Assembly (NCBI GenBank): GCA_958510875.1
Contig: OY294067.1
Span: 105,196,010 to 105,260,009 of the forward strand
Direction: 5' to 3'
DNA length: 64,000 bases
From: Endomychus coccineus
Lineage: Eukaryota > Arthropoda > Insecta > Coleoptera > Endomychidae
Shown: positions 10,017 through 60,954 of the stretch, piece after piece
How the letters are laid out: each line of letters begins with the position of its first letter
Numbering within the stretch: position 1 is the stretch's first letter
Position numbers and translations under genes: made by a program
The notes under the pieces: generated by a model
Database searches by the model: none
What the model saw: the letters and a program-made list of their open reading frames with translations, nothing else
What the model was told of the DNA's origin: nothing

Positions 10017-10049
10017 CAATTACCTAATAACAAACTCGATACCTCTAAA

Positions 10050-44147: not shown

Positions 44148-45002
44148 CTATTCTAGCAGGTTCGTGGTCCGCCAGAAACTCAGAATATTGCCAGTGCTGG
44201 CTTTCATAAGTTCTTCTGGGACCAGTTTTAATTCTCCGAAGTGTCGGTGCCCGAGGGTTGCTAATGCTGGGGATCCCAACAGGATGTGAGAGGCAGTTTC
44301 TTCCACCTCTCTGCATTTCTTACATATTGGGTCATCTGTGATGCCCATAGTGTGGAAATGTTTGCTAAGACGACAGTGTCCGGTTAGGATTCCAGTCATC
44401 TCTCGGATGTCCCTTCTGTTCAGAGAAAGGAGCTTCTTTGAGAGCCTAGGCACAGGCTCTTTGTTGAAGAGCTTGGCCTGTCTCATGCGTGGTGATTCTC
44501 GCCACAGTTTAGACCATTCTTTATTCAGTTGGCCCAAAAGGACGAGACCACCTACGCAGTTTGATAAAGCGACCATTGGCTCCGGCCCGATAGGGGCGCT
44601 AGACGACCCTCGTCTGCCCAGAGAGTCGGCCATTTCGTTCCCTACAACTCTGCTGTGTCCGGGGACCCAGATGAGTTGAACTTTATTTCTCATAGATAGT
44701 TCAGCCAGTGTATCCCTACATTCTTTGACGAGCCTTGATGTGACTCTGGGTGATTTGAGAGCTCCCAGAGCCGACCGGCTCTCTGTGCAAATATAGATGC
44801 GCCTATTTACATAGTTTCTTCTAAGGTTTTCCATGACACAAGTCAGTATTGCGTACACCTCCGCCTGAAAAACCGTGCAGTAAGTGCCTAGAGTCACTGA
44901 GATAGTGATCATTGGCCTTTTTACGTACACTCCCGCCCCAGAACTATGACCTACCTTGGACCCATCTGTCAACCATACGAGCCCGTTTGGTGACAGTAGG
45001 GT
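44148..45002 (-). pseudogene. R1-like retrotransposon ORF2, RNase H and C-terminal part
   Basis: Reads from about 44995 (L-V-W) into LTDGSKVGHSSGAGVYVKRP, QAEVYAILTCVMEN, ICTESRSALGALKS and IWVPGHSRVVGNEMADSLG, the RNase H order. The third acidic position reads Glu in T-E-S-R-S-A-L where relatives have Asp (S-D-S-Q). The C-terminal region carries a Cys-His finger (GHCRLSKHFHTMGITDDPIC followed by KKCREVEETASHIL). It is GC-richer than its surroundings, like the R1-like parts at 49726-50908 and 60449-62233, and points the same way. A second retrotransposon tail abuts it at 45003. The middle of the reverse transcriptase (F-A-D-D region) is missing from the window. Confidence 0.7.
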
Positions 45003-45008
45003 GAGGGT

Positions 45009-45040
<32 letters not shown>

Positions 45041-45077
45041 TTGCTCATTTATTTATTTATTTATTTATTTATTTATT
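45003..45077 (-). repeat. A-rich and (AAAT)n tail of the second retrotransposon
   Basis: On the minus strand this is an (AAAT)n run followed by A-rich sequence. It marks the 3' end of the element and the junction with R1-like sequence. Confidence 0.75.
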
Positions 45078-45339
45078 CAGTAAACAGATACATTAGATCA
45101 GAATGTTACAGAACCACAGGAAGATCCTAAAACGGTTCTAACTAATATATTAAATCTCCTCTAACTAATAACATAATATAATCCATTCATAAAGTTGAAT
45201 TTAAACAACAAAAAATACAATTAAAATTTAAAATTTACAAAAGAAAATCATAAAGTGTGAATTATTATTCATATTTTCTACCCATTTAAAAACATAATAA
45301 TTTTAATTCATTTGCAGAATAGACAAAAATTCCAATTAG

Positions 45340-48155
45340 CTAGGTGGTCTTAAAATTTTTTAAGCTAATGCCGAACATATCTCGGTCACTTTGATTAAAT
45401 ATTTTGCATGCCCGAGAGATTGGTGAAGCAAGCACAGTTGGGTTGGATAGGTAGAACAAATTAAATCTTCTAACACTATTAGATCGAGGCAGAATGTTAA
45501 TATAACTCAACAAATCTGGGCTATCAATGACACCATTGCAGATTTTATATAAAGTTGTTAACAAGCATTGATTTCTCCTATCCTCCAACGTACTTACTCC
45601 AGCCAAATCTCTCAAACGCTGTGTGGGAAAATCCCTTGGGCAAGAAAACCTATTCTTTTTATAATAAAAGTAACGCAAAAAATTATTTTGCATAACCTCA
45701 ATCTTTTTACAATATTTTTTATTTAAAGGGTTCCAAATGAGTGAGCAATACTCGATTTTACTTCTGATAAATGAAAAATAAAGAATTAAGATTCCTTTCG
45801 GATCTTTAAAGAATTTAGTCGACCTTTTTATTAATCCCATCATTTTATAACACGAAGTTATTACATCATCAATATGATCGTGAAAGTTGAACTTATTATT
45901 CATAATAACACCAAGATCATGGATTTGCCTCACTGATTTCAGTTCTGAATGCCCAATAAAATATTTGGACAACCTTTCTGATTTCTTTCTACTTATGGAC
46001 ATAACATAGCACTTATTAATATTTAAAGTAAGCTCATTCAAAACACACCAATCATTAAATCTATACAAATCACTCTGAAGAATAATGGCATCACTGACGT
46101 CATTAATTCTACGGTATAATTTCACATCATCCGCAAATAAAAGACAAAAAGACTGAAATATTTCTGGCAAATCATTAATAAAAATTAGAAAAAATAGGGG
46201 ACCCAGTTTTGAGCCTTGAGGAATTCCTGAATTGGGAATAAAAAGAGAAGATGTAAACTTGAGAAAAGAAACACAACATTCCCTGTTCTGAAGATAAGAG
46301 GCAAAAAAACGGATAGCCCCATCAGTCGCACCCAATTTACTAAGTTTTTTAAGTAATATATCATGAGAAACCATATCAAAAGCTTTACTGAAATCAGTAT
46401 AAATTACATCTATTTCACCTCTGTCCTCCATAACTCTAGAAACATATTCAGAAAAAACTAATAGATTTGATTCAGTGGATCTCCCTTTATAAAACCCATG
46501 CTGATTAGGTGAAATATACTGTTTTACACTGTTATAAAGAATCTTGTAAATGACATTTTCAAATACTTTGCCTGGACCATTTAAAATCGAAATAGGTCTA
46601 TAATTCGATATCTCAACCTCATTACCTTTTTTAAAAACTGGTGTAATTTTTACTAATTTCCATTTCATGGGAAACACTCCTTGTTGAAAACATAAATTAA
46701 AAATATGCAGCATCTTATCAGCTAATTCATATTTTAGTTCTTTAAAGAAGAAGGTTGGAATACCATCCAGACCACTACTTTTTTTGGATTTTAATTCATC
46801 AAAAGCTCCCAATACATCATTTAGATTTATCATACCAAAATGTAAATTTAGAAAATTATCATTATCTTGAACTACAGACTCTAAACTATAGCACGATTTT
46901 TTGGCACTGTAGACTGAATTAAAATAATCAGCAAAAGCATTTGAAATATCTTTACCTTTGAAAACCTGCCCATTCCATTCCATCCTGTCAAGCAATTTTG
47001 ATTTAGATCTTAATGAATTAATATATGTCCAAAACTGTTTGGAGTCATTCACTACAGATTGTTCAACAGATTTAATATAAACAATATAAGCATTTTGAAT
47101 ACGATCTTTAAGATTCTTACGGACATCTTTAAACCTTGACTCAAAGTAGGGTGAGACCCTCTTTTTCTTAGCCAGCATATTTTTCTCTCTACACAACTTT
47201 TTAATTTCATCAGTAAACCAAAGGGGATATTTATCATCACGTTTAATCAGTTTTTTGGGAACAAATTTATTTATCGCCTCATAAATAATATCATACAATA
47301 GATCCACTAATGGATCTACAGATTCCATTAGCAAAAAATTACTCCAATTATACTCACTCAAAAATTTCTTAATATTTCTCATATTGGCTTTGTGATACTG
47401 AAAATATTCAACATTATTATTTTGATTATTTACATCTGATACCGAATAAGGATTACTGGGAATCGTAAACTGAAGAGTTAGCGCCGGGTGATACCTATCT
47501 TCCACAACAAACGGACAGTTTTCGTGGTTCACAGTACTATTCTCAATATTAGTTAAAGCCAAATCTAAAGTTCTACCATAACAATTCAAAACATTATTGA
47601 TAGACTCCAAATTCAGAAGAGACATTAAATTTGAAATTATATTAGTTTTACAATTACCATCAACCGCATGATTAATTACATTATATATATTCTGCAAGTT
47701 AAAATCGCCTACTATAACAACACGACAGTTATTTTTCCATAATGCAATTAAGTCAATAAAGATTTGCACAAAATTCTCATAATTCTTACTATTACTACTA
47801 GGCCGAAAATAAACAGTACATATAAAAAAATAACCCCTGATTTATAAAAACTACAAATAATACACTCAAAATCAGGTTCGGATACTTTTTTAACTAATCT
47901 AGGTCTCAAATCAGATAAGATAGCTAAAAGTACCCCACCCCCTCTTTCCAACTAAACTCTATCGGATCTAAACACATCATACCTATTATCAAAAATTTCA
48001 TTATTCAAAATTGAAGAATTTAACCATGTCTCAGAGAGCGCAATTATATTAAAATTATTTTGCAAAACTGATAACAAAAATTCATTTGTTTTTGTCCTCA
48101 GTCCCCTTACATTCTGATAATATAAATCAAACTCGTTCTTATTATCTATAATCAC
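45340..48155 (-). pseudogene. Retrotransposon ORF2: endonuclease and reverse transcriptase
   Basis: The endonuclease begins at 48155 (LYYQNVRGLRTKTNEFLLSV) with ALSETWLNSS. A stop near 47952 and a frame change near 47830 break the middle. The frame reopens with VVIVGDFNLQNIYN and runs unbroken for 809 residues. That stretch includes the linker, SSGLDGIPTFFFKEL, SNYRPISILNGPGKVFE, IYTDFSKAFDMVSHDILLKK and GIPQGSKLGPLFFLIFINDL, the catalytic LLFADDVKLYRR near 46130, and a C-terminal domain ending at 45340. No RNase H follows. The long unbroken frame suggests a recent insertion with damage restricted to the endonuclease. Confidence 0.85.
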
Positions 48156-48313
48156 TAATAATATTATTAAACATCAAAACAACTGTTGATAAAACAAAAA
48201 TGAAACAAAAACTCTTTCTTCTCATTTCAAAAGAAAAATTACTTAAAAATATGAAATAAAAATAATATTATTATGTATTATGTACATTATTAATTCTAAG
48301 AGAACCATAAAAC

Positions 48314-49369
48314 TTATTGTTTAACACCTGCAAGAAAAGTGTCAAACTGAGCTTTTGTCGAAAACGAAAAAACTCTACTTCCATCAGTTTTTCTTAAATA
48401 GATCTTACCATTATTTACCCAAACAAATTTCCAATTTTCTTGAACTTTAAATTTACGCGCCATTGATAATAGTTTCTTTCTAACAGGTGTCAAAGCTTCA
48501 TTAACATAAATAGGTGAACTTTGTTGCATTCCTAAGTGAGTAGTGTTAAGATCCCTCCTCACCTTTCTACACTTAAGAAACTCATTTTTATCATTATTTC
48601 TTAAAAACTTTAATAATATTGTAGGATATTCAATACCAGGAATCTTCCGAAGTTGAAAACAAGAATCAATCGCATCCCAGTTTAACTTGAAACCAATTGC
48701 AGTAGAAAGGTTCGTAACAGCGGCAGACAAGGTTTCTCCTTGCCTCACTGGTAAACCATATACCTCAACAACATTAGAACGATTTTCTTGCTGAGATAAA
48801 TCAACTTCTTCCTTCAAAAACTGAATGTCCTTTTTTAAAACCTCGTTTTCACCTAATAGCTTTGTAATAATGTCCTGCTGAGTTTGTATAATTTTATTTT
48901 GTGTTTCAATGAGATTCTTATTATCCCCGATTTTGTCATGACAGGAATTCAGTGAGACATTGATATTTTTCTCTAGATTTGCTTGACTCACAGCAATGTC
49001 GCTTATTTGTTTTCTTAAATCAACAAGCAACTCATGAATATCTTGTGTCTGGCTAGAAGTTCCAGACTGAGACTGTTGACTGCCGCTGTCTGATTTAATA
49101 GGTTTGGAATTTTTTTTTTAATCACCTGCCATACTAATGTCAGAATCAGAGAAAGTTCTGCTTTGACGTCTTAATTGCAAACAGTTTCCACAATTCCACT
49201 TTTCTCCCAAAATTTCAAATTCTACTTCGGAAATGTTCACACATTGCCAATGAAAAAAACCAGAGCAATTACAACACTGAATCTTTTCCAAGGAATGCCT
49301 AGAGATAACTACTTCACAAATTGTACATGAACTCATAGGTATTTCATCTAAATTACACTTGGAAATCAA
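48314..49369 (-). pseudogene. Retrotransposon ORF1: PHD finger, coiled coil, FP-like domain (one in-frame stop)
   Basis: Starts at 49369 (MISKCNLDEIPMSSCTICEV) with a PHD-like finger CTICEV...CCNCSGFFHWQCVN...WNCGNC. A TAA in an A-run at about 49118-49120 (after S-M-A-G-D) interrupts the frame. The same frame continues through a Ser/Gln linker to a coiled coil (LRKQISDIAVSQANLEKNIN to LKKDIQFLKEEVDL) and an FP25/L1-ORF1-like domain (NVVEVYGLPVRQGETLSAAV to FLAGVKQ), ending at 48314. PHD plus coiled coil plus FP-like domain is a known insect retrotransposon ORF1 build. The stop is one base change or an A-run length change away from open. Confidence 0.8.
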
Positions 49370-49725
49370 GAATTATATGCCAGAATTAGTGATAGGTAAT
49401 TTAAATAAAAATATTTCACCATAAAAAGAAAAGAAACTAGACTTTTAAAAACTATTAAAATCATTTATAAGACTGCATAACTTTATGAATGTATTAGACA
49501 ATACGTCAACACTATAGACTGACCTTGAGCACATCTGCACAGTACGGAGTTCAGAACTATACTCGTTGTTCCAATCTCCTCTACCCGGGATGAGGATTTT
49601 GGGAGAAGTGAGACATATAGCAGGAATCATGCTATCTTGCTTCATTTCTGGTATGGGACATTTTGAGATTGTCTCACTTAGAATTGATGAGTGTCCACGA
49701 GAGTGGGCTCTCGTCGGAGCCGACC

Positions 49726-50908
49726 TTATGCCGCTAAGTATGCCTGATGCAAGGCAGTTTCAGTCGAGAGGCCAGCCTGGTAGGCGTGTTGACGAAAGTG
49801 TAAGGGATGGGCCTTTAGTGGGCCATCTCTCAAGTATCGGTCAATCAGTCTCTCCATTGCCTTTAATAGGAATGAGGTTAGACTAATAGGGCGGAATGCC
49901 TTAGCTTGGGTATGATCAGTTTTACCCGCCTTTGGAATAAACACGACTTTCACTGCCCGCCATAGCTTTGGAATAAAGCCAGTGGCTATGCAAAATCGGA
50001 AGATTTTCACCTATAGCTTGATGATAATTTCCTGTCCCTCTTGTAGGAGAGCCGGGAAGATTCCATCTTCGCCTGGTGATTTGTACGGTGCGAACCCGGA
50101 TATGGCCCACTTCACCTTAACATAATTGACTATGTCGGAGGACAAACGAAAGTCACCGTTATGACGGTCACTCTGTCCATCGTCTCTTTCAGTAGTCAGA
50201 TCTCTGTCTCCAGAGTCAGGAAAATGGACCGACACTAGGTGTCTCAGTGTCTCTTCCAGAGTCGTGGTGTACTCACCACTCGGAAGAATCACTGATCCAA
50301 TTCAGGCTCTGTTGTCTTCTGAGATAACTTTGCAGAGTCTTGCTGCAGAGGGTAACTTGTTGATATCCCCGCAGAAAGTCCGCCAGTGTCTCGTTTTGAC
50401 GTTCTCAACGCTTTTTTATAGTCTCTTTGGACCGCTTTATAGCTGTCCCAATTCACGACTACTTGAGATCTCTTAGCATTATTAAAGAGTTTTCTTACCG
50501 TTTTCCGGTGTTCCTCCACTTTTGTGGTCCACCATGGCGTTGTTCCTCCAGCGTTCCTCTGCCTAAGGTCACAGCTGGCTTCGTACGCAGAGATGATGGC
50601 GGAGCTAAAACCCGAAACTGTAGCCTCTGTCTCCGCCCTTCCTTCTCCGTGATAAGTCGGAAGCATCAGCAGCCTACCACATAGATCCTCCTTAGAGGCC
50701 CCAGTTGGAGGTCCTTGGATCCCTGTAACTTTGAAGCTCATTTGTGATAGATTCAACATCAAATAGAATGTGTCTATGATCCGATAAGGACACTTCAGAA
50801 GACACTTTCCATTTCGAAACCTGAGTCTCTATTGCCCTAGAGCAAAGGGTCAGATCAATAACATCCTGCCTTCTAGGGGTGAAATAAGTTGATATTGACC
50901 CTCTATTG
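49726..50908 (-). pseudogene. R1-like retrotransposon ORF2: end of endonuclease and start of reverse transcriptase
   Basis: Immediately outside the Polinton-like element (50908 down) the frame reads N-R-G-S-I-S-T, DVIDLTLCSRAIETQVSKWK and SSEVSLSDHRHILFD, the C-terminal half of an APE-type endonuclease including the S-D-H motif. A frame change near 50690 leads to the linker (TPWWTTKVEEHRKTVRKLFN) and another near 50380 to WAISGFAPYKSPGEDGIFPA. Then come VFIPKAGKTDHTQAKAFRPI, SLTSFLLKAMERLIDRYL and HAYQAGLSTETALHQ, the first reverse transcriptase blocks. Homology ends near 49740, before the catalytic F-A-D-D. Confidence 0.8.
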
Positions 50909-50914
50909 AGGATC
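50909..50914. repeat. Target-site duplication, left copy
   Basis: AGGATC directly outside the left AG end of the Polinton-like element. The identical AGGATC lies directly outside the right end (60443-60448). Confidence 0.9.
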
Positions 50915-51108
50915 AGTAGATGAACAGGACGAGTTCGGCCTCAGGATATCCGGTCTCCACTTCCGGTCTAGCTGTCGATGTGCATCCGGTGTGAGCTTGT
51001 CCTTATCAGTTTTGAAAGGATGTAGGTGATAAGGATTTTATTTGTAAAGAGTATACAGGGTGTGTATAAAAAGTGTGTCACATGTACAGAGTCACGTGAC
51101 TAACACAT

Positions 51109-51610
51109 GACAGCATGGCGGCCCTAAGGTACAGCTGTCATGGCGACCATAAGGACCAGCTGTCATGGCGGCTATAAGGTACAGCTGTCATGGCGACCAT
51201 AAGGTCCAACTGTCATGGCGACCATAAGGACCAGCTGTCATGGCGAACCTAAGGTACAGCTGTCATGGCGACCATAAGGTCCAGCTGTCATGGCGATCAT
51301 AAGGTACAGCTGCCATGGCGCCCATAAGGTACAGCTGTCATGGCGACCATAAGGTCCAGCTGTCATGGCGATCATAAGGTACAGCTGTCATGGCGCCCAT
51401 AAGGTACAGCTGTCATGGCGACCATAAGGTCCAGCTGTCATGGCGACCATAAGGTCCAGCTGTCATGGCGACCATAAGATCCAGCTGTCATGGCAACCAT
51501 AAGGTCCAGCTGTCATGGCGACCATAAGGACCAGCTGTCATGGCGACCATAAGGTCCAGCTGTCAAGGCGACCATAAGGTACAGCTGTCATGGCGGACCC
51601 AAGGTACAGA
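51109..51610. repeat. 25-bp minisatellite in the left inverted repeat
   Basis: About 20 units of CAGCTGTCATGGCGACCATA + AGGTC, with variants GACC/GATC/GCCC. Each unit contains the CAGCTG E-box palindrome. The right inverted repeat has about 12 units in inverted orientation. Confidence 0.9.
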
Positions 51611-52726
51611 CTGCTTCGTGGAGGGGGGCTCCGCCACCTCTAGGAAGCAATCTGTACCTTTGGTCCAAAGGTACAGGCTGCTTCATGGAGATGTCACCAC
51701 CACGTGACAGCTGTCATCGAAGGTGAAGAATGCTTCGTGGAGATGGCGCCACCAAGTGACAGCTGTCATGGCGGACCTAAGGTACAGATTGCTTCGTGAA
51801 GATGTCACCACCACGTGACAGCTGTCATGGCAACCCTTGGGTACAGGCTGCTTCATGGAGATGTCGCCACCACATGACAGCTGTCATGGCGGACTAAAGG
51901 TACAGGTTGCTTCGTGTAGGTGTCACCACCACGTGACAGCTGTCATGGTGAGCTAAAGGTACAGGCTGCTTCATGGAGATGTCGCCACCACATGACAGCT
52001 GTCATGGCGAACCAAAGGTACAGGTTGCTTCGTGTAGGTGTCACCACCACGTGACAGCTGTCATGGTGAGCTAAAGGCACAGGCTTCTTCGTGTAGGTGT
52101 CACGTGACAGATGTCATGGCGGATCGAAGGTACAGGCTGCTTCGTGAAGGTGTCACCACCACGTGACAGAGACTGCTTCGTGGAGGTGTCGCCACCAGTT
52201 CGACTCGTCCGACTCATGCGACTTATACGGTTTTGAAATCACATGATCTGTCACGCGGTGAGATATGGTGTCTGTCACTTCGACGGAGTGTCTGTCACAA
52301 GGTGTCATGGTGGCCATCACGTACCATAGAGCTGAAGGTTACAGAGCTAACCCAACTCAAAACCATAGAGCATCATGGTGGTGGAAAGAGTTGTCATGAT
52401 GTCTGTCACGTGAGGTCTTCATCGAGGTGTCATGTCGCGTCTTGGAGGGTGTGACGTGGTGGATCCATGAAGCATCTGTCACGCGAACTGTCAAGACGGA
52501 TCTATGAATGTCAACCATAGCTTTATAGGTATCAAATGAAAAGTCTTGATATGCAGAATGTTAATTTTATTGAATTGAAGATCCTACGATCATAGTTTAC
52601 CAACGGTGATGACGTCACGGGAGGCATTCATTGTTTCAATCCGGCGACCATAGTTTACGAACGATGATGACGTCACTGCTTCGAACCGATGACAGTAACT
52701 GATTCAACCCGGCGACCATAGTTTAC

Positions 52727-52752
52727 GAACGATGATGACGTCATCATCGTTC
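52727..52752. repeat. Perfect 26-bp palindrome with TGACGTCA core, left
   Basis: GAACGATGATGACG + TCATCATCGTTC reads identically on both strands and contains TGACGTCA, the classical CRE/ATF site. It lies at the inner edge of the left inverted repeat. A half-version (ACCATAGTTTACGAACGATG followed by ATGACGTCA) occurs twice just outside it. Confidence 0.9.
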
Positions 52753-52917
52753 ACGAACTATGATCGTCAGATGAGGAATGAAATGCGAGTAATAATAATG
52801 ATACTCTATGTGTAAATGTGAATAGTTGGAGGTTATGATAAAGATATCCAGTAAGTTTGTAAATGTGTCATTATGCATATATCTTTTGAAGAATACACAC
52901 GTATACTTTGAAAATTT

Positions 52918-53524
52918 GTGGAGAAAGTTCATGAACTAAGAAGAGACTTGAATTTTCACGAAGATAAAATAAAAGTTATAAGACTGTTGAATACATTTAC
53001 AAGTGCAAAAAGTGAAGTTAATGATGGGAGTGGGGATGTTAAAAAAAAATTTCGTGATTCTAACCACAAATCTGAATGGTATTCTATACGCGAACGTTCC
53101 CCAACACGTTGAGCGCATTTATATTTGTCTGAAGGATGTTGCAACCGATGGTGGTGGGGGGTGTAACCGTACCGAATGGATTCCGATGAATTTTAGAAAA
53201 ATCAACGATAATCAATTAGAGGTATTCGCATTCAACATTCCTCAAGATAATCGTACCACCATACATTATAAACTTAAACTTTTATTCTTTGATCGGAGTG
53301 AGGGAGATATGGCTGAATGGCAATTGCTCCAACAATCATCATGTTTACCACATGTCATACAAAAGACAATATCAACACCATCCACACGTACATCATCCTC
53401 ACTAGACGAAGAAATTTCTAAAATTTTCGCAATTTTGTATGCAATTTTATCTTCTTTATCAGTACTAATGTTGAAAATGTTTGTTAAATATGTAAAGAAG
53501 GCTATTTACCATGTAAATAAATGA
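52918..53524 (+). CDS. Unknown Polinton-like element protein with C-terminal hydrophobic segment
   Basis: The only gene of the element on the plus strand. The clear part starts around 53003 and reads ILTTNLNGILYANVPQHVER, WIPMNFRKINDNQLEVFAFN and RTTIHYKLKLLFFDRSEGDM. It ends with a Ser/Thr stretch and a hydrophobic segment IFAILYAILSSLSVLMLKMF (about residues 140-162), likely a membrane anchor or membrane-active helix. Another frame (MEKVHELRRDLNFHEDKIKV) is open from 52918 to 53112 and overlaps across an A-run (AAAAAAAAA near 53041-53049), so the true N-terminus may involve a shift or splice there. I do not recognise the family. A membrane-associated virion protein is possible but only inferred. 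Confidence 0.45.
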
Positions 53525-53569
53525 TTGTATGAAGATATAAGTGTTTTAATAAAACAAAAGGAATGATAA

Positions 53570-54567
53570 TTATAATAATATATTGACATTATCATTTGCT
53601 AGTTCATAAGCTTTATTTTTGTGATTGATAACACATTCTATCAATGACTCGATGTTGATATCACTAATCAATTGTTCACCCCCCTCTTCTTCTGCGGCAT
53701 GAATAATATTTCCTCTTGCATACCATTTCAAATCGCGGCGGAAATTCTGTTTCACTTCGTTACCAATATCGATAGCATGAGATATGTTAGACCATTTACG
53801 TATTAATCGCATTCCTCGATTTTGTAATTTTCTGTCGGCATCACGCCAACCATCCTCCTGTCGACGCATTAGGTACCATTCTGGTCTCATATCATTCGAT
53901 GTTCGATATAATCCAAAATAATATATATTATATAAATTTTATTATAAAAAACAAAGTAATTACCTAAATTTCGTCTCTTTCCGAAATTTATAGGAGGTGG
54001 AACAATATTTGGTGCAATGTTATTCCGTAAGGTGATAACATTCATTTGAATTTGTTGAGATAAGCGTTGAGATCGTTCTTTCGCAAGACATTCATGTTCC
54101 TCAGCTCTTTGACGTTCTTGTGGTTCATAGAATTTCTCGTACTCACAATATTTCATCATAATAAATTTCATTAACGAAAACAGTTCACGTAACTCGATGA
54201 CTTTAGGAGTTCGCATTTGCATCAATAATGATTCGAAATCAATAGCATCTAGAACATAATATTTCTTTCGTGCATCAGTCTTATCATAAATTCCTAAATG
54301 GTGTATATGCGGGTTTTTCCTCAACAATTTTGTTATAACACCCTTTTTAGCATGATATTTTTTGCCGCGATAACCTAACCAATCCAATAGATCTTCATTC
54401 ATCAGAACGCGTTGGTTTAGTTGAATATTCCAAAATAAATAGTTTCTTTTATCGTTTCTTATATCGATCCCAAATTTTAGACACACTTCATTAACTGTTA
54501 ACTTAATAAAATTGTTGGTGGACCATGTAGCCACATTTGAATCACGAACGCACGCTGCTAAGTTCAT
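53570..54567 (-). CDS. MSV199-like protein, possibly one spliced gene
   Basis: The upstream frame (54567-53887) starts MNLAACVRDSNVATWSTNNF. It contains RVLMNEDLLDWLGYRGKKYH and GVITKLLRKNPHIHHLGIYD, resembling the MSV199 domain of large insect DNA viruses and related elements. A charged helix follows (RQRAEEHECLAKERSQRLSQ). The second frame (53890-53570) reads WYLMRRQEDGWRDADRKLQN and WSNISHAIDIGNEVKQNFRR, which I recall as the usual C-terminal domain of the same protein family. The frames overlap by ATGA at 53887-53890. However, a GTAATT donor after R-R-N-L (near 53963) and an AG near 53882 could splice out the AT-rich end and join them. I favour one protein of about 300 residues; the splice is inferred. 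Confidence 0.5.
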
Positions 54568-54903
54568 TTTTATAACTGAACATTTTCTGAAATGATTCTC
54601 TCTTACATACGTGAGAACGTGAACGTGAATAGTGAGGGTGGGGGGTAACTCTCCGTTTCGATGTCATTGCAAACGTTGATAACTGACTGATAACGTCACT
54701 AGTTGTTTCAATTTGTTTCATTTCCAGCAACCGACTACCATAGTTTACAAACTATGATCGTCGGATGTTTACATCACCACCTACCGTTTGAAAAATAAAA
54801 TATCAAATATAATAATAATAATAACATTTATTGGGAAAGATACATTTTGATAGTACATCATTTAGAACTAAAATTATAACATTATGATTCATCACCTGGT
54901 TCT

Positions 54904-56115
54904 TCACACCAAATTCCGAACTGATCCTGTAATCGGAGAATACTCCATTATACGATCGTTAATGATGATGCAATAAGCCCTGGTGTTTTTGGGGAAATTC
55001 AGGAAACTTTCCATCTCTAGTTTGACGTCAACTGTTGATGACTTTATAGCATCGTTTTGTTTTGAACAGTCAATCACAAAAATTGCTCTATTCTTGAATG
55101 CTATATAATCTAACATGGGCTCACTTATTATTTTATTTGAAAATGATTTCTGGAAATCATAGTACATCTGGTATGCTTCCACGTATTGCTGGTCGGTGAA
55201 ATTCAATTTCATTGCTTCATATGGATAACACTCTGAATTCAAGTATAATTTTACATTTAGCAAGTTTATATGATCGAAATATGCACTGTGCTTAACAGGA
55301 TTATTTTTTCGATCAGTTTGGAAAGCTAGAATCACATATCTAGGACGTTCCAAATTCATTGATGTTTTAACAGCCCAAATGTCACGAGTGCTCTCCTTCA
55401 TCAACGGATTTTCATGCAGATCCGAACTACGGAATGGAATCAAAATAGGCTTCTCAGCACTCAAATTCCCCAACATTTGAAATTTAACTTGATCACTTGG
55501 AAACACATGTCGCACTTTTAATGCTATCGTCTTCACATTTATTTTAGCCGTTTTCGTGCCTGTGCTATTAGTATAGCAATCGTTATCGGTTCGAGACCTT
55601 ATCAAGCGCAGCTTATGTTTTCCACTCAAAACTTTGTTATAGTCAATGAATAGGCCTAGTAGAAAATTCAACGGTATCCATAAATTGATTTTATTATTGT
55701 AGACTGAACTCAATACATCCTTAAATGACCATCCAGAAATAGCTAGAGGTATAGATTCATGTTTGGCATATGTTAGATAAGCTCTGATGGTGCTGACAAT
55801 ACCAGGATCACGTACTTTGTCTATCTCTTTTCCATTCAATTCATAACTGATATATTCGAAGAGAAACGCTCCGAAATTATTCGTTAGTTTACATTCACCA
55901 TCACCACTTGCTTCTGGCTGGAATTCTGCCTCGATGAATAAAGCAGACGATGCCAAATCTACCAACACGTCTTGTTGATTGATTAATATCTCAATTTCAT
56001 CGCTGTTGCCAAAAGATGTTGTGTGGGGATAGTAGATATGAGTTTCTTCTCGGATGATGTCTTCATTGAAGTCTGGCTCGTTGAATATTTGAAGTTTTTC
56101 CGACATTGTAACCAA
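54904..56115 (-). CDS. Major capsid protein candidate (double jelly-roll type)
   Basis: A 403-residue unbroken frame beginning MVTMSEKLQIFNEPDFNEDI. Features include EIEILINQQDVLVDLASSAL near residue 45, FLFEYISYELNGKEIDKVRD near 85-105, NLWIPLNFLLGLFIDYNKVL near 140-160, and RYVILAFQTDRKNNP with YVEAYQMYYDF further on. The N-Q-Q-D..L...S-x-L-(F/Y)-I-E and Y-E-L-N-G-x-E-I-D-(R/K) strings are hallmarks of a capsid-like protein repeated across arthropod genomes in Polinton/adintovirus-type elements. Double jelly-roll assignment is from recalled family knowledge, not computed here. It lies between the penton-like gene and the MSV199-like gene on the same strand. No membrane segment. Confidence 0.65.
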   Translation of the reverse strand: MVTMSEKLQIFNEPDFNEDIIREETHIYYPHTTSFGNSDEIEILINQQDVLVDLASSALFIEAEFQPEASGDGECKLTNNFGAFLFEYISYELNGKEIDKVRDPGIVSTIRAYLTYAKHESIPLAISGWSFKDVLSSVYNNKINLWIPLNFLLGLFIDYNKVLSGKHKLRLIRSRTDNDCYTNSTGTKTAKINVKTIALKVRHVFPSDQVKFQMLGNLSAEKPILIPFRSSDLHENPLMKESTRDIWAVKTSMNLERPRYVILAFQTDRKNNPVKHSAYFDHINLLNVKLYLNSECYPYEAMKLNFTDQQYVEAYQMYYDFQKSFSNKIISEPMLDYIAFKNRAIFVIDCSKQNDAIKSSTVDVKLEMESFLNFPKNTRAYCIIINDRIMEYSPITGSVRNLV

Positions 56116-56328
56116 GGGACTTCAAAAAATTGGTATTTTCCAATGATAGTGATGCAGAAGCAACCTTCTCCCTTGAACTCGTTGTAGATAATGACTGATG
56201 ACCACTATGGGTATGTCTTTTATTGCTGAAATCCAAACCCATGTTCTCAAGTGATGGCTACTGCAACAACAACCTTCTCAGATGAATTCTTTTCATATAA
56301 TGAGTGGTGGTGAGTATTGGATTATTAT

Positions 56329-57096
56329 TTATTGTTGGAAGCCATAATCCCTAGCGGTCTTTTTCAACTCCAACCGTATAATAATTTCTTCTCCACGAAA
56401 ATTTACCCGTTTCCAATTCTGATCTAAAATATTCAGTGTGATGTTATCGAAGGACGTCTTGTTGATGACCGGTAGATAAATAAGATTCTTCGGCTCTATA
56501 TCAATGGAAAACCCAGGTGATACAAGAGGTGAGAACTCATATATCGTATGAGCTATCTTATTGTTATAATATGCTCCTGCGGTTAAGTTACACTCGACAC
56601 GTATAGTTTGAACTTTGATTATGTTTATAGGTCGATCAGATACGTGTAGTTCACGAGATGTCAATTTCTTTTTGCTGAATCCCAACAGTTCGCTTATACT
56701 ATCTTTAGGAATAAAATTCACTTCAAAATCACTCTTCAGCTCTGTGTGTAGAGTGTTGTTGTTAGATTTTATTGATAATTTCCGGTCACGTTCTTCTTGC
56801 TTCACTCCTATCCCACAAACTGTACTTTGTATGAAATCCTCGATGTCTGTCAACTCGTAGGACCCCGTAGGTATAGCTACTACTTCTTCCTCACCCTTCA
56901 CATTTTTATAATAAAATTTATTAAAACCTTCTTCAATGTTCGGAATGCTATTGTACGTATGCAAGCCAACAAGTGCGATAGAATAATATGAATGAGGATC
57001 TAGTTCTATAGGTGGGTGGAAATCTACAGATAAGCGGGAGCTCTTACCCGTGATAGTGAACGTCTGAGACATGATTGATGAAAACTTTACCAACAA
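56329..57096 (-). CDS. Minor capsid (penton-like) protein candidate
   Basis: A 255-residue open frame; an internal Met (MSQTFTITGKSSRLSVDFHP) eight codons in is a likely start, at about 57072. The N-terminal F-x-P-P-I-E-L-D-P...Y-x-I-A-L-V-G-L, then YNSIPNIEEGFNKFYYKN, IPTGSYELTDIEDFIQ and a C-terminal beta-rich region, match a small protein that usually sits beside the capsid gene in arthropod Polinton-type elements. By position and size it would be the single jelly-roll vertex protein, which is an inference. No stops. Confidence 0.5.
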   Translation of the reverse strand: MLVKFSSIMSQTFTITGKSSRLSVDFHPPIELDPHSYYSIALVGLHTYNSIPNIEEGFNKFYYKNVKGEEEVVAIPTGSYELTDIEDFIQSTVCGIGVKQEERDRKLSIKSNNNTLHTELKSDFEVNFIPKDSISELLGFSKKKLTSRELHVSDRPINIIKVQTIRVECNLTAGAYYNNKIAHTIYEFSPLVSPGFSIDIEPKNLIYLPVINKTSFDNITLNILDQNWKRVNFRGEEIIIRLELKKTARDYGFQQ

Positions 57097-57123
57097 TCTG
57101 TTTATATACTAATACATGCAGGG

Positions 57124-58132
57124 TTAGTCGAGCACAACTGAAGAGTTAGAGAGGAAATCTAAACATAACTGACCACAATTATAAGTGTTATATTGTTGAA
57201 AATTATCGTGATTGAATAATATCTTACACTTTTTGAAATAATCCACTAGTTCGCGAGGGGGGCGTAAATTCTCGTTATATTCAAGCATATCATTTTTGAT
57301 ATATGCACTTCCAGTGTATGTTTTGGCTCTGGGTTTTTTCATGGAATTAATCAAAGGTTTCAGTACATTTTTGTATTTTACAATGTTTCTTATTCGATCA
57401 GCTGGATCGTTATTACGTCTATGGGCACTAGTCATTTCCATCATTTGACTGTAATTTTTCCCATCTTCCACAGTGTAAGTATCAGGTAGAACATCTCTGT
57501 AAAATATCAAATTATACAGTCCTGTGGTACCCTTGAACGGAGTACCCTTGATAATTATATTACTCTCACTATCAATTTCTATAGGTTGATTACCCATGAA
57601 CCATTTGTCTAAAGTTGTATTATATTGCAATCCCATTCTATCATCGTATTTCTTGACATCATCATCCAATAGGAATCCTTCCAAGTAATAACGTGCTAAT
57701 GTGGGATATTGTTGCAGAAACTCCTCTGTAGCCTCTGCATTATCTTTCTTATGTTTTCTGAATTCTTCACGAATCTGATCGATAGTAGGTTCGAGGGTAA
57801 ACACATCCTCCTCAGTATTTTGGGGGTTATATACGAACTCTTCCCCTTCAGTTACAATATTTGGGATTGGTATGTTCTCCATTTGTGTTGCTGTAGAAAC
57901 AATACTTTTAGGTTTAACCAACGAATTTTATTTGATTATTTCAGCATTTCTCGCAATTTCCTCCAGAGGTTTAGATACATTCCCGAACATATTATCTAGA
58001 ATCTCATCATTTTCAGCTTTACCCAATTTCACAGCCATATATTTTTTCCTCACAACGTTTGCTAACTCCCAAATTTTTTTCTTCTATTGTTGTTTTTCCT
58101 TTAGCATGTTACTCACACCCACGTCCATGCTG
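57124..58132 (-). pseudogene. Element protein with protease-like C-terminus and two N-terminal stops
   Basis: From 58132 the frame reads M-D-V-G-V-S, then KKIWELANVVRKKYMAVKLG and FGNVSKPLEEIARNAEIIK, with in-frame stops near 58088 and 57932. From about 57921 it is open for 265 residues: TIDQIREEFRKHKKDNAEAT, LARYYLEGFLLDDDVKKYDD, SAHRRNNDPADRIRNIVKYK and TYTGSAYIKNDM. The end abruptly resembles an adenain/Polinton-type cysteine protease tail: LRPPRELVDYFKKC and YNTYNCGQLCLDFL, with the presumed catalytic Cys near residue 249. The His and Asp/Glu parts of such a protease are absent. A deletion fusing two neighbouring genes is the simplest reading. A shorter protein from an internal Met remains possible. 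Confidence 0.5.
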
Positions 58133-58170
58133 AGCGGGTTGTCTATTTCAAATGAAAGTATATATACATG

Positions 58171-58896
58171 TTAGATGTATATATAACTATCAAAACCTTT
58201 GCGATAACGTCCTTTGTTCATATCACAGTCTTTGTTTATCATAAGGTATCCATATTTATCTTTCCAACATACGCTACATATCTCTTTGAATTTTTCGAGT
58301 GACATGTCGGTACTTACATGATCGGTGAATATATGTTTCAAATTGAGCTCATCCTGTTTGAAAATAATCAAGCAATTGGCATTGTCGCGCAATCCATGTT
58401 TTGGACATTTAGCAAAAGACTGGCAAAGATAGAAACTATCAATTGAGTTGTGTCTCCCTCTTGAAAAATAAGCACGAATTTTCTCCTGTTTCTCAAACAT
58501 CACGTCATCGAATATTATGATTGAATTAGGCCTCGCTTCTGTGGGGTCTATGACCTCATCACTTTCGGTACAAGGAAAATATCCAAGCCCCTCAATTTTC
58601 TTCAATGTCTCCTTTAGTAACTGATATTTTGGTTGGTGTAAAGACTTTGAATATATGTACACGTTTTCAAATTTCAGACCGTTTGCATCTAACAATAGAG
58701 ATAACATCACATTTGTTTTCCCACAATTATTTGGACCACAGATTATTGTTCGTAGAGTATTAGGCAGCAAAGAGCTGTGAAGTTGTGGTTGTTCAACATT
58801 CTCATTGCTTGACCCTAAGTTCATAATACTCAACGAGTCTTTTTGCTTAACAATCTTCATCATCCCTGAAGGCGAATCGAAATCATACTGGAACAT
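58171..58896 (-). CDS. A32-like genome-packaging ATPase
   Basis: A 241-residue unbroken frame. Walker A is GPNNCGKT at residues 54-61 and Walker B is IIIFDDV at about 126-132. FSRGRHNSIDSFYLCQS (about 144-160) follows, as in FtsK/HerA-type packaging ATPases of Polintons, virophages and poxvirus A32. Length is normal for this group. It is the first minus-strand gene, and its 5' side faces the CACGTG tandem repeat at 59020-59240, which could contain its promoter. In a virion-forming element it would drive DNA into the capsid. Confidence 0.75.
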   Translation of the reverse strand: MFQYDFDSPSGMMKIVKQKDSLSIMNLGSSNENVEQPQLHSSLLPNTLRTIICGPNNCGKTNVMLSLLLDANGLKFENVYIYSKSLHQPKYQLLKETLKKIEGLGYFPCTESDEVIDPTEARPNSIIIFDDVMFEKQEKIRAYFSRGRHNSIDSFYLCQSFAKCPKHGLRDNANCLIIFKQDELNLKHIFTDHVSTDMSLEKFKEICSVCWKDKYGYLMINKDCDMNKGRYRKGFDSYIYI

Positions 58897-59019
58897 ATGT
58901 TAATAAGCATTTGTTTATATACTAGATGATGATGTTATATTGTGTATGTCTGATCACGCGGTTAGGTGCTTCTACGCTTCTGTCAAAATCAGGTATCAAA
59001 TACATGTTAAATAGGTATG

Positions 59020-59240
59020 AATGCTGAAACACGTGTTTGAATGCTGAAACACGTGTCTGAATGTTGAAACACGTGTCTGAAACACGTGTCTGAAACACGT
59101 GTCTGAATGCTGAAACAAGTGTATGAATGCTGAAACACGTGTCTGGATGCTGAAACACGTGTCTGAAACACTTGTCTGAATGCTGAAACACGTGTCTGAA
59201 TGTTGAAACACGTGTCTGAATGTTGAAACACGTGTTGAAT
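59020..59240. repeat. 20-bp tandem repeat with CACGTG cores
   Basis: Units of TGAATGCTGAAACACGTGTC, some shortened to a 10-base TGAAACACGTG(T)C form. About a dozen CACGTG (palindromic E-box) copies lie upstream of the ATPase gene. Open frames through it in all three minus-strand frames are just the repeat translated (HVFQHSDTCF repeats). Confidence 0.9.
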
Positions 59241-59284
59241 CATGCGAAAAACATGTGCATGAATGTATTACAATCATTATGATT

Positions 59285-60442
59285 ATTCACATTTTATTCC
59301 TCATTAGCCAATCATAGTTCGTGAACGATGATGACGTCATCATCGTTCGTAAACTATGGTCGCCGGGTTGAATCAGTTACTGTCATTGGCTTGAAGCAGT
59401 GACGTCATCATCGTTCGTAAACTATGGTCGCCGGGTTGAATCAGTTTGATTTCAAAACCGAGTCGCATGAGTCGGACGAGTCGAACTGGTGGCGACACCT
59501 CCACGAAGCAGTCTCTGTCACGTGGTGGTGACACCTACACGAAGCAGCCTCTACCTTCGGTCCGCCATGACATCTGTCACGTGACACCTACACGAAGCAG
59601 CCTGTGCCTTTAGCTCACCATGACAGCTGTCACGTGGTGGTGACACCTACACGAAGCAACCTGTACCTTTGGTTCGCCATGACAGCTGTCATGTGGTGGC
59701 GACATCTCCATGAAGCAGCCTGTACCTTTAGCTCACCATGACAGCTGTCACGTGGTGGTGACACCTACACGAAGCAACCTGTACCTTTAGTCCATGAAGC
59801 AATCTGTACCTCAGGTACTGCCATGACAGCTGTCACTTGATGGCGACATCTCTACAAAGCAATCTGTACCTTAAGTCCGCCATGACAGCTGTCACTTGAT
59901 GGCGACATCTCTACGAAGCAATCTGTACCTTAGGTCCGCCATGACAGCTGGTCCTTATGGCCGCCATGACAGCTGGTCCTTATGGTCGCCATGACAGCTG
60001 GACCTTATGGTCGCCATGACAGCTGGTTCTTATGGCCGCCATGACAGCTGGTCCTTATGGTCGCCATGACAGCTGGTCCTTATGATCGCCACGACAGCTG
60101 GACCTTATGGTCGCCATGACAGCTGGTTCTTATGGCCGCCATGACAGCTGATCCTTATGGTCGCCATGACAGCTGGTCCTTCTGGTCGCCATGACAGCTG
60201 GACCTTATGGTCGCCATGACAGTTGGACCTTAGGGCCGCCATGCTGTCATGTGTTAGTCACGTGACTCTGTACATGTGACACACTTTTTATACACACCCT
60301 GTATACTCTTTACAAATAAAATCCTTATCACCTACATCCTTTCAAAACTGATAAGGACAAGCTCACACCGGATGCACATCGACAGCTAGACCGGAAGTGG
60401 AGACCGGATATCCTGAGGCCGAACTCGTCCTGTTCATCTACT
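59285..60442. repeat. Right terminal inverted repeat of the Polinton-like element
   Basis: Reverse complement of the left repeat: the GACGTC palindrome near 59323-59348, GTTCGTAAACTATGGTCGCC repeats, CACGTG/GCTTCGTG blocks, minisatellite (about 59935-60250), then the about 190-base outer part ending GTTCATCTACT. Shorter than the left copy because of fewer repeat units. Confidence 0.85.
59323..59348. repeat. Perfect 26-bp palindrome with TGACGTCA core, right
   Basis: Identical to the palindrome at 52727-52752, at the inner edge of the right inverted repeat. Confidence 0.9.
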
Positions 60443-60448
60443 AGGATC
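60443..60448. repeat. Target-site duplication, right copy
   Basis: AGGATC, identical to 50909-50914. Removing the element and one copy gives a continuous R1-like frame reading Q-L-E-I-L-N-R-G-S. Confidence 0.9.
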
Positions 60449-60954
60449 TCAAGCTGTGTGGAGCTAAGGAACTCCAGCAATGCCTCCCCCTTAGGATTGA
60501 CACCACTGCTGCCCCACATTGTGTGGTGGGCATTGGCGTCGCACCCGAGGAGAAGCGGAATCCCCTGCTCCTCACAGTATCGACTTAATTTCGCCACCTC
60601 GACTGGAGGAGCATGTTGGGACTCGTAAGGGAAATAGGCAGAACATACTACCATCTCCCTCTCCACGTTCCCAGATTTATACCTCAGCCTGACCGCTGCC
60701 AAGTCTCTGGAAAGAAATCCTGGCATGGGGGTCACATTCACGTCTTTGGTGAATATGCAGGCCCTAGGACGTTCTACAGTTGTAAAATAATGTAATGTAC
60801 TCTTGGTTTGGGTCATGCCCCTGACTTGACCTTGGTAGACCCATGGTTCCTAAATCAGCGACACATTAATTTTTTGCTCAATGAGCTTTTCACACAGCAC
60901 AGCAGTTGAAGACTTACCGTGCTGGAGGTTGATTTGTAGAAATTTTACTGTCAT
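60449..60954 (-). pseudogene. R1-like retrotransposon ORF2: start of endonuclease
   Basis: Begins MTVKFLQINLQHGKSSTAVL at 60954 (catalytic-site Asn in I-N-L-Q). An in-frame TAG follows at about 60855, directly before the E-P-W-V-Y block where relatives have Gln. Then come VTPMPGFLSRDLAAVRLRY, VVCSAYFPYESQHAPP and LLLGCDANAHHTMWGSS, ending FLSSTQLEIL at the Polinton junction. The frame continues on the far side of the insertion at 50908. Single Gln-to-stop damage in this piece. Confidence 0.8.

Follow-up and report, generated by a model that had tools for sequence, protein, structure and literature searches.

An internally deleted Polinton copy in the beetle Endomychus coccineus and its family, which shows no polymerase and may borrow one from partners with similar ends

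In a 64,000-nt stretch of the genome of the beetle Endomychus coccineus, which we call the window, a Polinton-type element sits inside an older retrotransposon. The element is an internally deleted copy of a longer, high-copy family, here named W. Polintons are usually called self-synthesizing because they carry a polymerase of their own. The reading that we favor, to which we give a probability of roughly 0.6, is that W makes its own capsid and integrase, and borrows a polymerase through ends that it has in common with a second kind of Polinton in the same genome, the partner.

The integrated element and its insertion site

The element is 9,528 bp long and occupies positions 50915..60442, as delimited by its ends and by empty sites. 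It is flanked by a base-exact duplication of the target AGGATC, at 50909..50914 on the left and at 60443..60448 on the right. The element sequence starts with AGTAGATGAACAGG and finishes with CCTGTTCATCTACT, that is, with AG...CT termini. A previous reading of this DNA by its letters alone (the sequence-only reading) had described a perfect duplication and these termini, and both are exact to the base.

The ends form long inverted repeats, the left one at 50915..52802 (+ strand) and its counterpart on the right at 59273..60442 (− strand). Their outer 216 bp are the same. Since the first mismatch, reading inward, comes only at base 217, the comparison of 60300-60442 with the reverse complement of 50915-51060 that had been proposed as a check gives 100% identity. 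Inward of the outer 216 bp the repeats extend to ~1.2 kb (right) and ~1.9 kb (left) and can be aligned with gaps; over 1,250 aligned bases they differ by 66 substitutions (94.7% identity, a value to which a few poorly aligned positions at the inner end contribute). The main difference between left and right is the copy number of two tandem repeats. The array of 25 bp has about 19 copies on the left (51114..51595) and about 13 on the right (59928-60243), and the array of 59 bp is found at 51665..52169 on the left and 59515-59950 on the right.

The insertion splits a retrotransposon endonuclease into an N-terminal half at 60449..60849 and a C-terminal half at 50692..50908, both on the − strand. 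The halves fit adjacent parts of PF14529, positions 2-72 (over the cut-off) and 68-116 (just under it), and it is at the level of this endonuclease-RT domain that the host element, called R1-like in the sequence-only reading, is identified. When the flanks are joined with a single AGGATC, as the sequence-only reading had anticipated, the result is an open frame of 207 aa containing STQLEILNRGSIS. Uninterrupted genomic copies align with all 207 residues across the junction, with 86% (L031) and 92% (L034) identity. The search for empty sites that it had suggested gave a clear answer as well: the 119-nt joined site, uninterrupted, is matched at all 40 places scored in the same assembly (from 272 first-look candidates), with 89-96% identity. 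We regard the integration, with its ends, its 6-bp duplication, and its empty site, as established.

Genes of the window copy and an internal deletion

The assignment to Polintons made in the sequence-only reading also stands. As in Polintons/Mavericks, we find a 6-bp duplication, AG...CT ends, long inverted repeats, a double-jelly-roll capsid, and a packaging ATPase. The major capsid protein (400 aa, 54904..56106, −) matches PF21738 with an E-value of 1.2e-87, and its structure model (pLDDT 87.5) matches the capsids of Sputnik and mavirus. By sequence, the capsid protein has no credible match in the PDB, and a search of viral contigs with the protein and with its alignment found no relative. 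The ATPase (241 aa, 58171..58896, −) matches Pox_A32 (PF04665, E-value 5.3e-5) just over the cut-off. Adjoining the capsid gene there is a 247-aa ORF (56329..57072, −) with no family match, which is a candidate minor capsid protein solely by its position. Folded alone, its model has a pLDDT of 34 and is unusable, and in comparison with its positional counterpart in another Polinton family of this genome (family A, discussed below) it reaches a BLASTP E-value of 0.063 only.

Three more ORFs complete the inventory. A 226-aa ORF (53887..54567, −) has an MSV199 domain (PF10553, E-value 1.4e-5 for the stop-to-stop ORF), and is followed by a 106-aa ORF (53570..53890, −) whose own ATG overlaps its stop. 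We had considered a copy-specific frameshift that would have split this pair, and dropped the idea because the same adjoining pair of ORFs is present in 5 of the 6 related copies compared. The third, a 167-aa ORF (53021..53524, +) present in 7 of 8 related copies, has by eye a C-terminal hydrophobic stretch, and no Pfam match. A tRNA and Rfam search of the window gave no match, and a PHROGs search nothing useful.

The sequence-only reading took the element to be complete, which holds for both ends but not for the interior. At 57269..57270, a junction with 2 bp of microhomology, 3,074 bp that are present in the related copies L013 and L014 are missing. The integrase went with this segment, as did the genes for a phospholipase-like and a coiled-coil protein and 82 of the 130 codons of a protease ORF. 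What remains of the adenovirus-type protease ORF is its C-terminal part (57124..57270, −; ~48 of 130 codons). Next to it is the remnant of a conserved 305-368-aa ORF (57270..58038, −). The deletion cuts this ORF, as does an in-frame stop that lies between an ORF ending at 57928 and one starting at 57927; at this stop the ORF is open in L010, L013, L048, and L050. The window copy has no integrase and no DNA polymerase, either as an ORF or as a family match. Both ends, the duplication, and the capsid genes are all there as in a complete autonomous Polinton, but that reading is already refuted by the 3,074 bp absent relative to L013/L014, by the gene content with neither an integrase nor a polymerase ORF, and by the interrupted reading frame.

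The W family

A search of the genome for other copies, another of the proposed checks, brought out the high-copy family W. The capsid gene is present in at least 104 copies, that of the window included, at ~99% identity in the 906-Mb assembly, a count obtained by scoring the best 104 of 4,475 candidates. Of the capsid matches, 54 tie at one top score, suggesting intact capsid genes in the copies from which they arose. Pairwise comparisons of seven capsid genes give 0-8 silent and 8-18 replacing changes; silent changes do not dominate, as expected of copies decaying after insertion. An exact 6-bp duplication flanks 10 of 12 end pairs of the element family (the pair at C5:83.10 Mb was left out of this count). 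The two exceptions are C1:133.45 Mb, with no duplication, and C1:195.02 Mb, where the flanks are mutually inverted copies. Related capsid genes occur in other beetle assemblies, and six database contigs of 7.9-14.1 kb, equated across searches by their lengths, appear to combine capsid and integrase.

We read eight relatives of 11.9-17.6 kb, and all eight of these W-type end pairs have integrase, capsid, ATPase, and protease sequence. Two of them, at C1:122.88 and C5:31.91 Mb, came from the 54 best-scoring capsid copies, and are the two of the 104 scored capsid matches that were read besides the window. The W integrase (in L013) matches Pfam rve over the cut-off (E-value 5.1e-15), and has a match to the chromodomain PF00385 under the cut-off. 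The 130-aa protease ORF in L009 and L014 matches PF00770 under the cut-off (E-value 0.023), and a manual reading places its H, D, and C as in the adenovirus protease. Seven polymerase queries compared by tblastn with the eight W copies found a match in none of them. Very probably W is without a polymerase as a rule; with only 104 of the 4,475 candidates scored, the capsid search may have passed over elements that combine a W-type capsid with a polymerase.

Polymerase-bearing partners with similar ends

Two longer end pairs, found by means of the end sequence of the window element, carry pieces of a polymerase-B ORF. One is at C1:178.89 Mb (23.7 kb, duplication AGAAAC), and the other at C2:103.76 Mb (21.1 kb, duplication TGAAAC). 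The polymerase pieces match PF03175 with E-values of 6.7e-7 in L040 (over the cut-off) and 6.6e-5 in L041 (under the cut-off). Both partners are broken by retrotransposon genes, with the polymerase split among several frames, and an intact polymerase-bearing partner was not seen among these two. At C2:103.76 Mb, no match was found for the ATPase, the phospholipase-like gene, the protease, or the 247-aa ORF.

How similar are the ends? The outer 150 bp of W and partner are 89-96% identical for W copies chosen by their ends, and 79-89% for two copies chosen by their capsid. Within W, the corresponding values are 90-99% and 76-92%. End divergence between W and partner is thus no greater than among W members, and the two capsid-chosen copies correct our earlier reading, in which the ends were equally alike between and within types at 89-96%. 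The similarity of the partner ends is in part an effect of choice, because the partners were found by the window's end sequence.

The other region held in common is the integrase. In a tree of 123 tips, the W and partner integrases are sisters (support 1.0) at a distance of 0.2, the next being at 0.74; they are 82-83% identical, and 83-84% at the nucleotide level (L013/L014). In the capsid tree of 183 tips, the partner belongs to a 16-tip clade (support 1.0) that does not include W, at a distance of 1.8 from it; the deep node that unites the two capsids has a support of 0.50 only, and protein identity is only 33-42%. When L013/L014 are compared with the partner in nucleotides, the ends stand out (92-94% over 180-467 bp), as does the integrase; elsewhere there are short matches only, of 71% over 254 bp and 65% over 423 bp.

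How W may be copied

According to the reading that we favor, W would supply its own capsid protein, packaging ATPase, protease, phospholipase-like protein, and integrase, the polymerase being the component not found. Its DNA would be replicated in trans, by means of the protein-primed polymerase that the longer Polintons with similar ends carry, packaged in W's own capsid, and inserted by the integrase type common to both, which would produce the 6-bp duplication. If the deletion preceded the insertion, the window copy, having lost its integrase too, would depend on others for both polymerase and integrase. From the sequences, we give copying of W in trans by the end-sharing partner an even chance, and the making of W virions is somewhat less likely than not. 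In the W copies read there are capsid genes of their own and no polymerase was found, a combination that is one of two criteria for a satellite virus; for the other, a named helper needed for replication, the observations are the similar ends and the sister integrase. A tentative extension is that the two form a satellite-helper pair of Polintons in one genome, in which polymerase-less W lives off Polintons of another capsid clade by adopting or exchanging ends and integrase; shortened copies such as that of the window have lost the integrase as well.

An unlikely alternative is that W lost its polymerase in descending from autonomous elements with the same capsid that we have not sampled, the end-sharing partner being uninvolved. 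That the W copies read are eight, and that the searches score the best candidates only, leaves some room for it, but a polymerase match in none of the eight speaks against it, as does the fact that the end-sharing elements with a polymerase differ from W in capsid clade and have an integrase that is sister to its own. Comparably unlikely is that the ends and sister integrases go back to one old recombination, and that W spreads without virions by its integrase and host DNA synthesis. W is known from sequence, integrase sequence is retained in all eight copies, and the ends of the capsid-chosen copies (79-89%) are no closer to those of the partners than are the integrase genes (83-84%), all of which agrees with an old recombination. 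However, some W ends are 93-96% like those of the partners, a similarity above that of the integrase genes and a hint that ends were exchanged later, and the 54 capsid matches at one top score, with the intact source genes that they suggest, also weigh against it.

The copier could also be one of two further Polinton families in this genome, both polymerase-bearing and with ends different from those of W: family A, which has an integrase besides its polymerase, or family B. Both have 6-bp duplications (GCCATG and GACAAC) and tips that start with AGTAG. We find this improbable: past AGTAG the ends of family A are unlike those of W (every one of 2,000 shuffles reaches at least the same score), and the one weak stretch between W and family B, which was noticed before testing, is equaled by 45 of 2,000 shuffles, for which reason we set aside an end relation between the two. 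A division of labor between W and family B had been considered, and was dropped once polymerase-bearing elements with W-like ends appeared.

Relation to known systems

Internally deleted non-autonomous DNA transposons keep their ends, have lost part of their core, and are copied and inserted in trans. W differs in that it still codes for most of a morphogenesis module. The longer W copies further resemble Polintons/Mavericks by their adenovirus-type protease ORF and rve integrase; the differences are the polymerase, not found in the window or in any of the eight W relatives, and, in the window copy, the loss of the integrase together with the larger part of the protease ORF. Intact vertebrate Mavericks are recognized by TIRs, 6-bp duplications, and eight core genes, and have the end motifs (AG)3 or (AGT)2 (PMC8097293).

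Adintoviruses (Eupolintoviridae) are similar to W as animal-genome elements with a capsid, ATPase, protease, and an integrase, that of W having a weak chromodomain match. Their definition rests on a PolB that carries an N-terminal OTU-like domain, and on a recognizable hexon (PMC11071296), whereas no PolB was found in the W copies read. Their rve integrase with a C-terminal chromodomain is absent in the window, and in L013 the chromodomain is under the cut-off. Unlike the Meldviruses that lack PolB and integrase, W retains the integrase, occurs in many copies on the chromosomes, and shares its genome with a polymerase-bearing partner whose ends are similar. Virophages such as mavirus and Sputnik are, like W, small double-jelly-roll elements that require a helper, the helper of W being proposed from sequence. 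They differ in being parasites of the giant viruses of protists, whereas the helper proposed for W is itself a Polinton, in the genome of an animal; and mavirus carries its own pPolB (PMC11071308). A literature search, largely of papers outside subscription, found in the texts available no description of a Polinton that has an integrase, lacks a polymerase, and shares its ends with a partner.

A recently active lineage with capsid genes and an integrase, no polymerase found, and ends resembling those of a polymerase-bearing one would allow two questions to be addressed in a living animal: do Polintons still assemble particles, and are they themselves parasitized? Given how many copies are nearly identical, the W burst may be young enough for a search for free DNA, RNA, and particles.

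Element boundaries and insertion site

The boundaries proposed by the sequence-only reading, for an element at 50909..60448 inside a retrotransposon endonuclease frame, are borne out to the base. The 6-bp duplication AGGATC is found at 50909-50914 and 60443-60448, and the element between (the window copy) occupies 50915-60442, or 9,528 bp. When the two termini are compared reading inward, 216 bp are identical. The inverted repeats extend to 1.2 kb on the right and 1.9 kb on the left, and include 25-bp and 59-bp tandem arrays with copy numbers that are unequal between the two ends. Joining the flanks with one AGGATC restores an open 207-aa frame, as had been claimed, which aligns over its full length and across the junction to uninterrupted copies in the same genome with 86% (L031) and 92% (L034) identity. 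The 119-nt joined site was found, with 89-96% identity, at all 40 scored places in the same genome (272 candidates). This agreement between boundaries and empty sites is far beyond chance.

Beyond the interrupted endonuclease, in the stretch 44151-50300, lie an RNase H (44151-45020) and a long reverse transcriptase ORF with a trace of endonuclease (45343-47841); a second non-LTR retrotransposon may be nested in the first. The window also has a P-element-like transposase ORF at 2319-3752 (PF21788, PF21787, PF12017), and, at 10017-12837, a further non-LTR retrotransposon encoding an endonuclease and a reverse transcriptase.

Genes and deletion in the window copy

The minus strand of the element encodes a packaging ATPase (58171-58896; PF04665, E 5.3e-5), a conserved ORF that is cut short, what is left of a protease, an ORF of 247 aa, the major capsid protein (54904-56106; PF21738, E 1.2e-87), and a pair of adjoining ORFs, the first with an MSV199 domain (E 1.4e-5). 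A 167-aa ORF is on the plus strand. No polymerase or integrase is seen among these genes. The capsid model (pLDDT 87.5), when compared to solved structures, matches the double-jelly-roll capsids of PBCV-1, Sputnik and mavirus (best E 6e-15). Against viral models, the first match listed is an uncharacterised bracovirus protein with a TM of only 0.39; proteins of virophages, adomaviruses, MELD viruses and giant viruses come next. The MSV199 ORF ends in a stop that overlaps the ATG of the next ORF (53887-53890), and the two adjoin likewise in 5 of 6 related copies; the arrangement hints at coupled translation.

The element had also been called complete, and that description does not hold. The window copy is an ordinary deletion derivative that lacks 3,074 bp relative to the copy at C1:195.02 Mb (C1-C5 are contigs of the same-genome assembly), with a 2-bp microhomology at 57269/57270. 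Within the missing stretch are a coiled-coil ORF, a 360-aa ORF that matches rve integrase (E 5.1e-15) and, weakly, the chromodomain, a 270-aa ORF whose domain is phospholipase A2-like (PF08398, E 7.2e-9), as well as 82 of the 130 codons of the protease ORF. The conserved ORF that precedes the deletion carries an in-frame stop here; this stop is not present in four other genome pieces (L010, L013, L048, L050).

A high-copy family without a detected polymerase

The window copy belongs to a high-copy family, W. We searched the same-genome assembly (906 Mb, 129 contigs, with the window at C1:105196010-105260009), where the outer 146 bp have at least 40 scored matches among 1,335 candidates, and the capsid protein at least 104, window included, among 4,475; both counts are lower bounds. 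The scored capsid matches are at least 99% identical over 400 residues with no inside stops, and 54 copies tie at the next-best score of 891 bits.

Eight W copies, all fetched as separate pieces, were read: six end pairs found by the window's end sequence, and two from among the 54 capsid copies tied at 891 bits. All eight contain sequence of the integrase, capsid, ATPase, protease, coiled-coil and phospholipase-like genes (the phospholipase-like gene only 19% covered in the C4 copy), and seven polymerase queries have no match in any of them. Several genes of the six copies found by their ends have stops. The two capsid-picked copies (C1:122.88 Mb and C5:31.91 Mb) measure 12.3 kb each; their duplications are CAGGGG and CAGTAT.

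An exact 6-bp duplication flanks 10 of the 12 end pairs examined. One of the other two pairs has no duplication; at the second, the W copy at C1:195021814-195034616, the flanks are inverted copies of each other in place of a 6-bp duplication. In the C3:96.46 Mb pair, the ATPase and upstream-ORF sequences are present twice. At C3:108.34 Mb the W right end is doubled, about 1.3 kb apart, with the same flank after each. At C1:122.88 Mb the left end of the copy agrees with the right one at only 84% over 150 bp; the duplication is exact and the copy otherwise well kept.

Seven capsid genes, window included, differ by 0.8-2.1% in DNA, and in no pair are replacing changes rarer than silent ones, a pattern that is expected after insertion. 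Between the inverted repeats of the window copy, 0 of the 216 outermost bases differ, 4 of 333 in an inner segment, and 13 of 171 in the innermost. At an insect rate of about 3e-9 per site per year, these differences suggest an age on the order of one to a few million years, a loose date because the innermost segment disagrees.

Partners with similar ends

Two longer elements, at C1:178.89 Mb and at C2:103.76 Mb, are each flanked by a 6-bp duplication of their own and contain pieces of polymerase B (matches to PF03175 and Endonuclease_7). Retrotransposon genes interrupt both elements, and the polymerase is spread over several frames. Over the outer 150 bp, W copies picked by their ends are 89-96% identical to the partners and the two capsid-picked copies 79-89%; the values within W are 90-99% and 76-92%, so W's own ends are more variable than the first, end-picked sample showed. 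The partner ends thus fall inside the range of W.

The partner integrase is 82-83% identical to that of W. For C1:178.89 Mb, identities are 54% for the ATPase, 55% for the phospholipase-like protein, 54% for the protease, 41-46% for the 247-aa protein and 33-42% for the capsid. The C2:103.76 Mb capsid is 38-42% identical, and the search of this element gave no ATPase, phospholipase-like, protease or 247-aa match. At the nucleotide level beyond the ends, only the integrase stands out between the C1:195.02 Mb copy and the partners (83-84%), with two more short stretches at 65-71%.

In the integrase tree, which has 123 tips and retains all 120 homologues listed (the best 120 of 4,180), W and partner are sisters with support 1.0. 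In the capsid tree (183 tips; 180 of 217 homologues kept) they are not: the partner falls in a 16-tip clade without W (support 1.0), and support for the node that unites them is 0.50. The partner tips are the C1:178.89 Mb integrase and the C2:103.76 Mb capsid; each element also has the other gene. Thus, the integrases share a recent history whereas the capsid genes do not. In two lists of capsid homologues, each limited to the best 120 and with most entries bearing no name, the named owners are beetles, so that the host is probably a beetle; among those listed, the sequences closest to the partner capsid are from the leaf beetles Phaedon, Callosobruchus, Diabrotica and Diorhabda.

Proposed copying in trans

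Protein-primed polymerases start at specific ends, as established for adenoviruses and related systems. Since no polymerase is seen in W, and its ends are like those of polymerase-bearing elements, the simplest reading is that W is copied in trans by an end-sharing partner, to which, from sequence comparison, we give a probability of about 0.5. The partner's protein-primed polymerase would copy W via the similar ends, and insertion with a 6-bp duplication fits the integrase type common to both. The window copy would be a further step of dependence if its deletion came before its insertion.

A related observation has already been published: genomes with adenovirus-class virion proteins and no recognisable PolB or integrase have been mentioned (PMC11071296). 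Recent Maverick expansions are described in Curculio weevils (PMC13419823, where the words "capsid" and "polymerase" are absent from the main text). In the literature searched we found no report of a Polinton that, like W, has an integrase but no polymerase and shares its ends with a partner.

Other Polinton families

A polymerase search of the genome scored the best 76 of 1,489 candidates. Family A is represented at C1:238.65 Mb by an element of about 13 kb with the duplication GCCATG. It has a polymerase, and is 39% identical to W in integrase, 33% in ATPase and 23% in capsid protein (PF21738, E 9.6e-26). Its protease-like ORF, with no Pfam match, was recognised by eye. Family B, an 18-kb element at C3:75.69 Mb with the duplication GACAAC, encodes a polymerase of about 1,270 aa together with a matrixin metalloprotease; neither the ORF lists nor tblastn with W genes show an integrase or a capsid gene in it. 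A second, unlinked copy at C5:68.71 Mb is 99-99.9% identical over long aligned stretches. Family B also has fragments that match the polymerase of the W partner at 83-88% identity over 80-81 residues. The tips of both families have AGTAG in common with W and little else. The C3 copy of family B adjoins histone genes.
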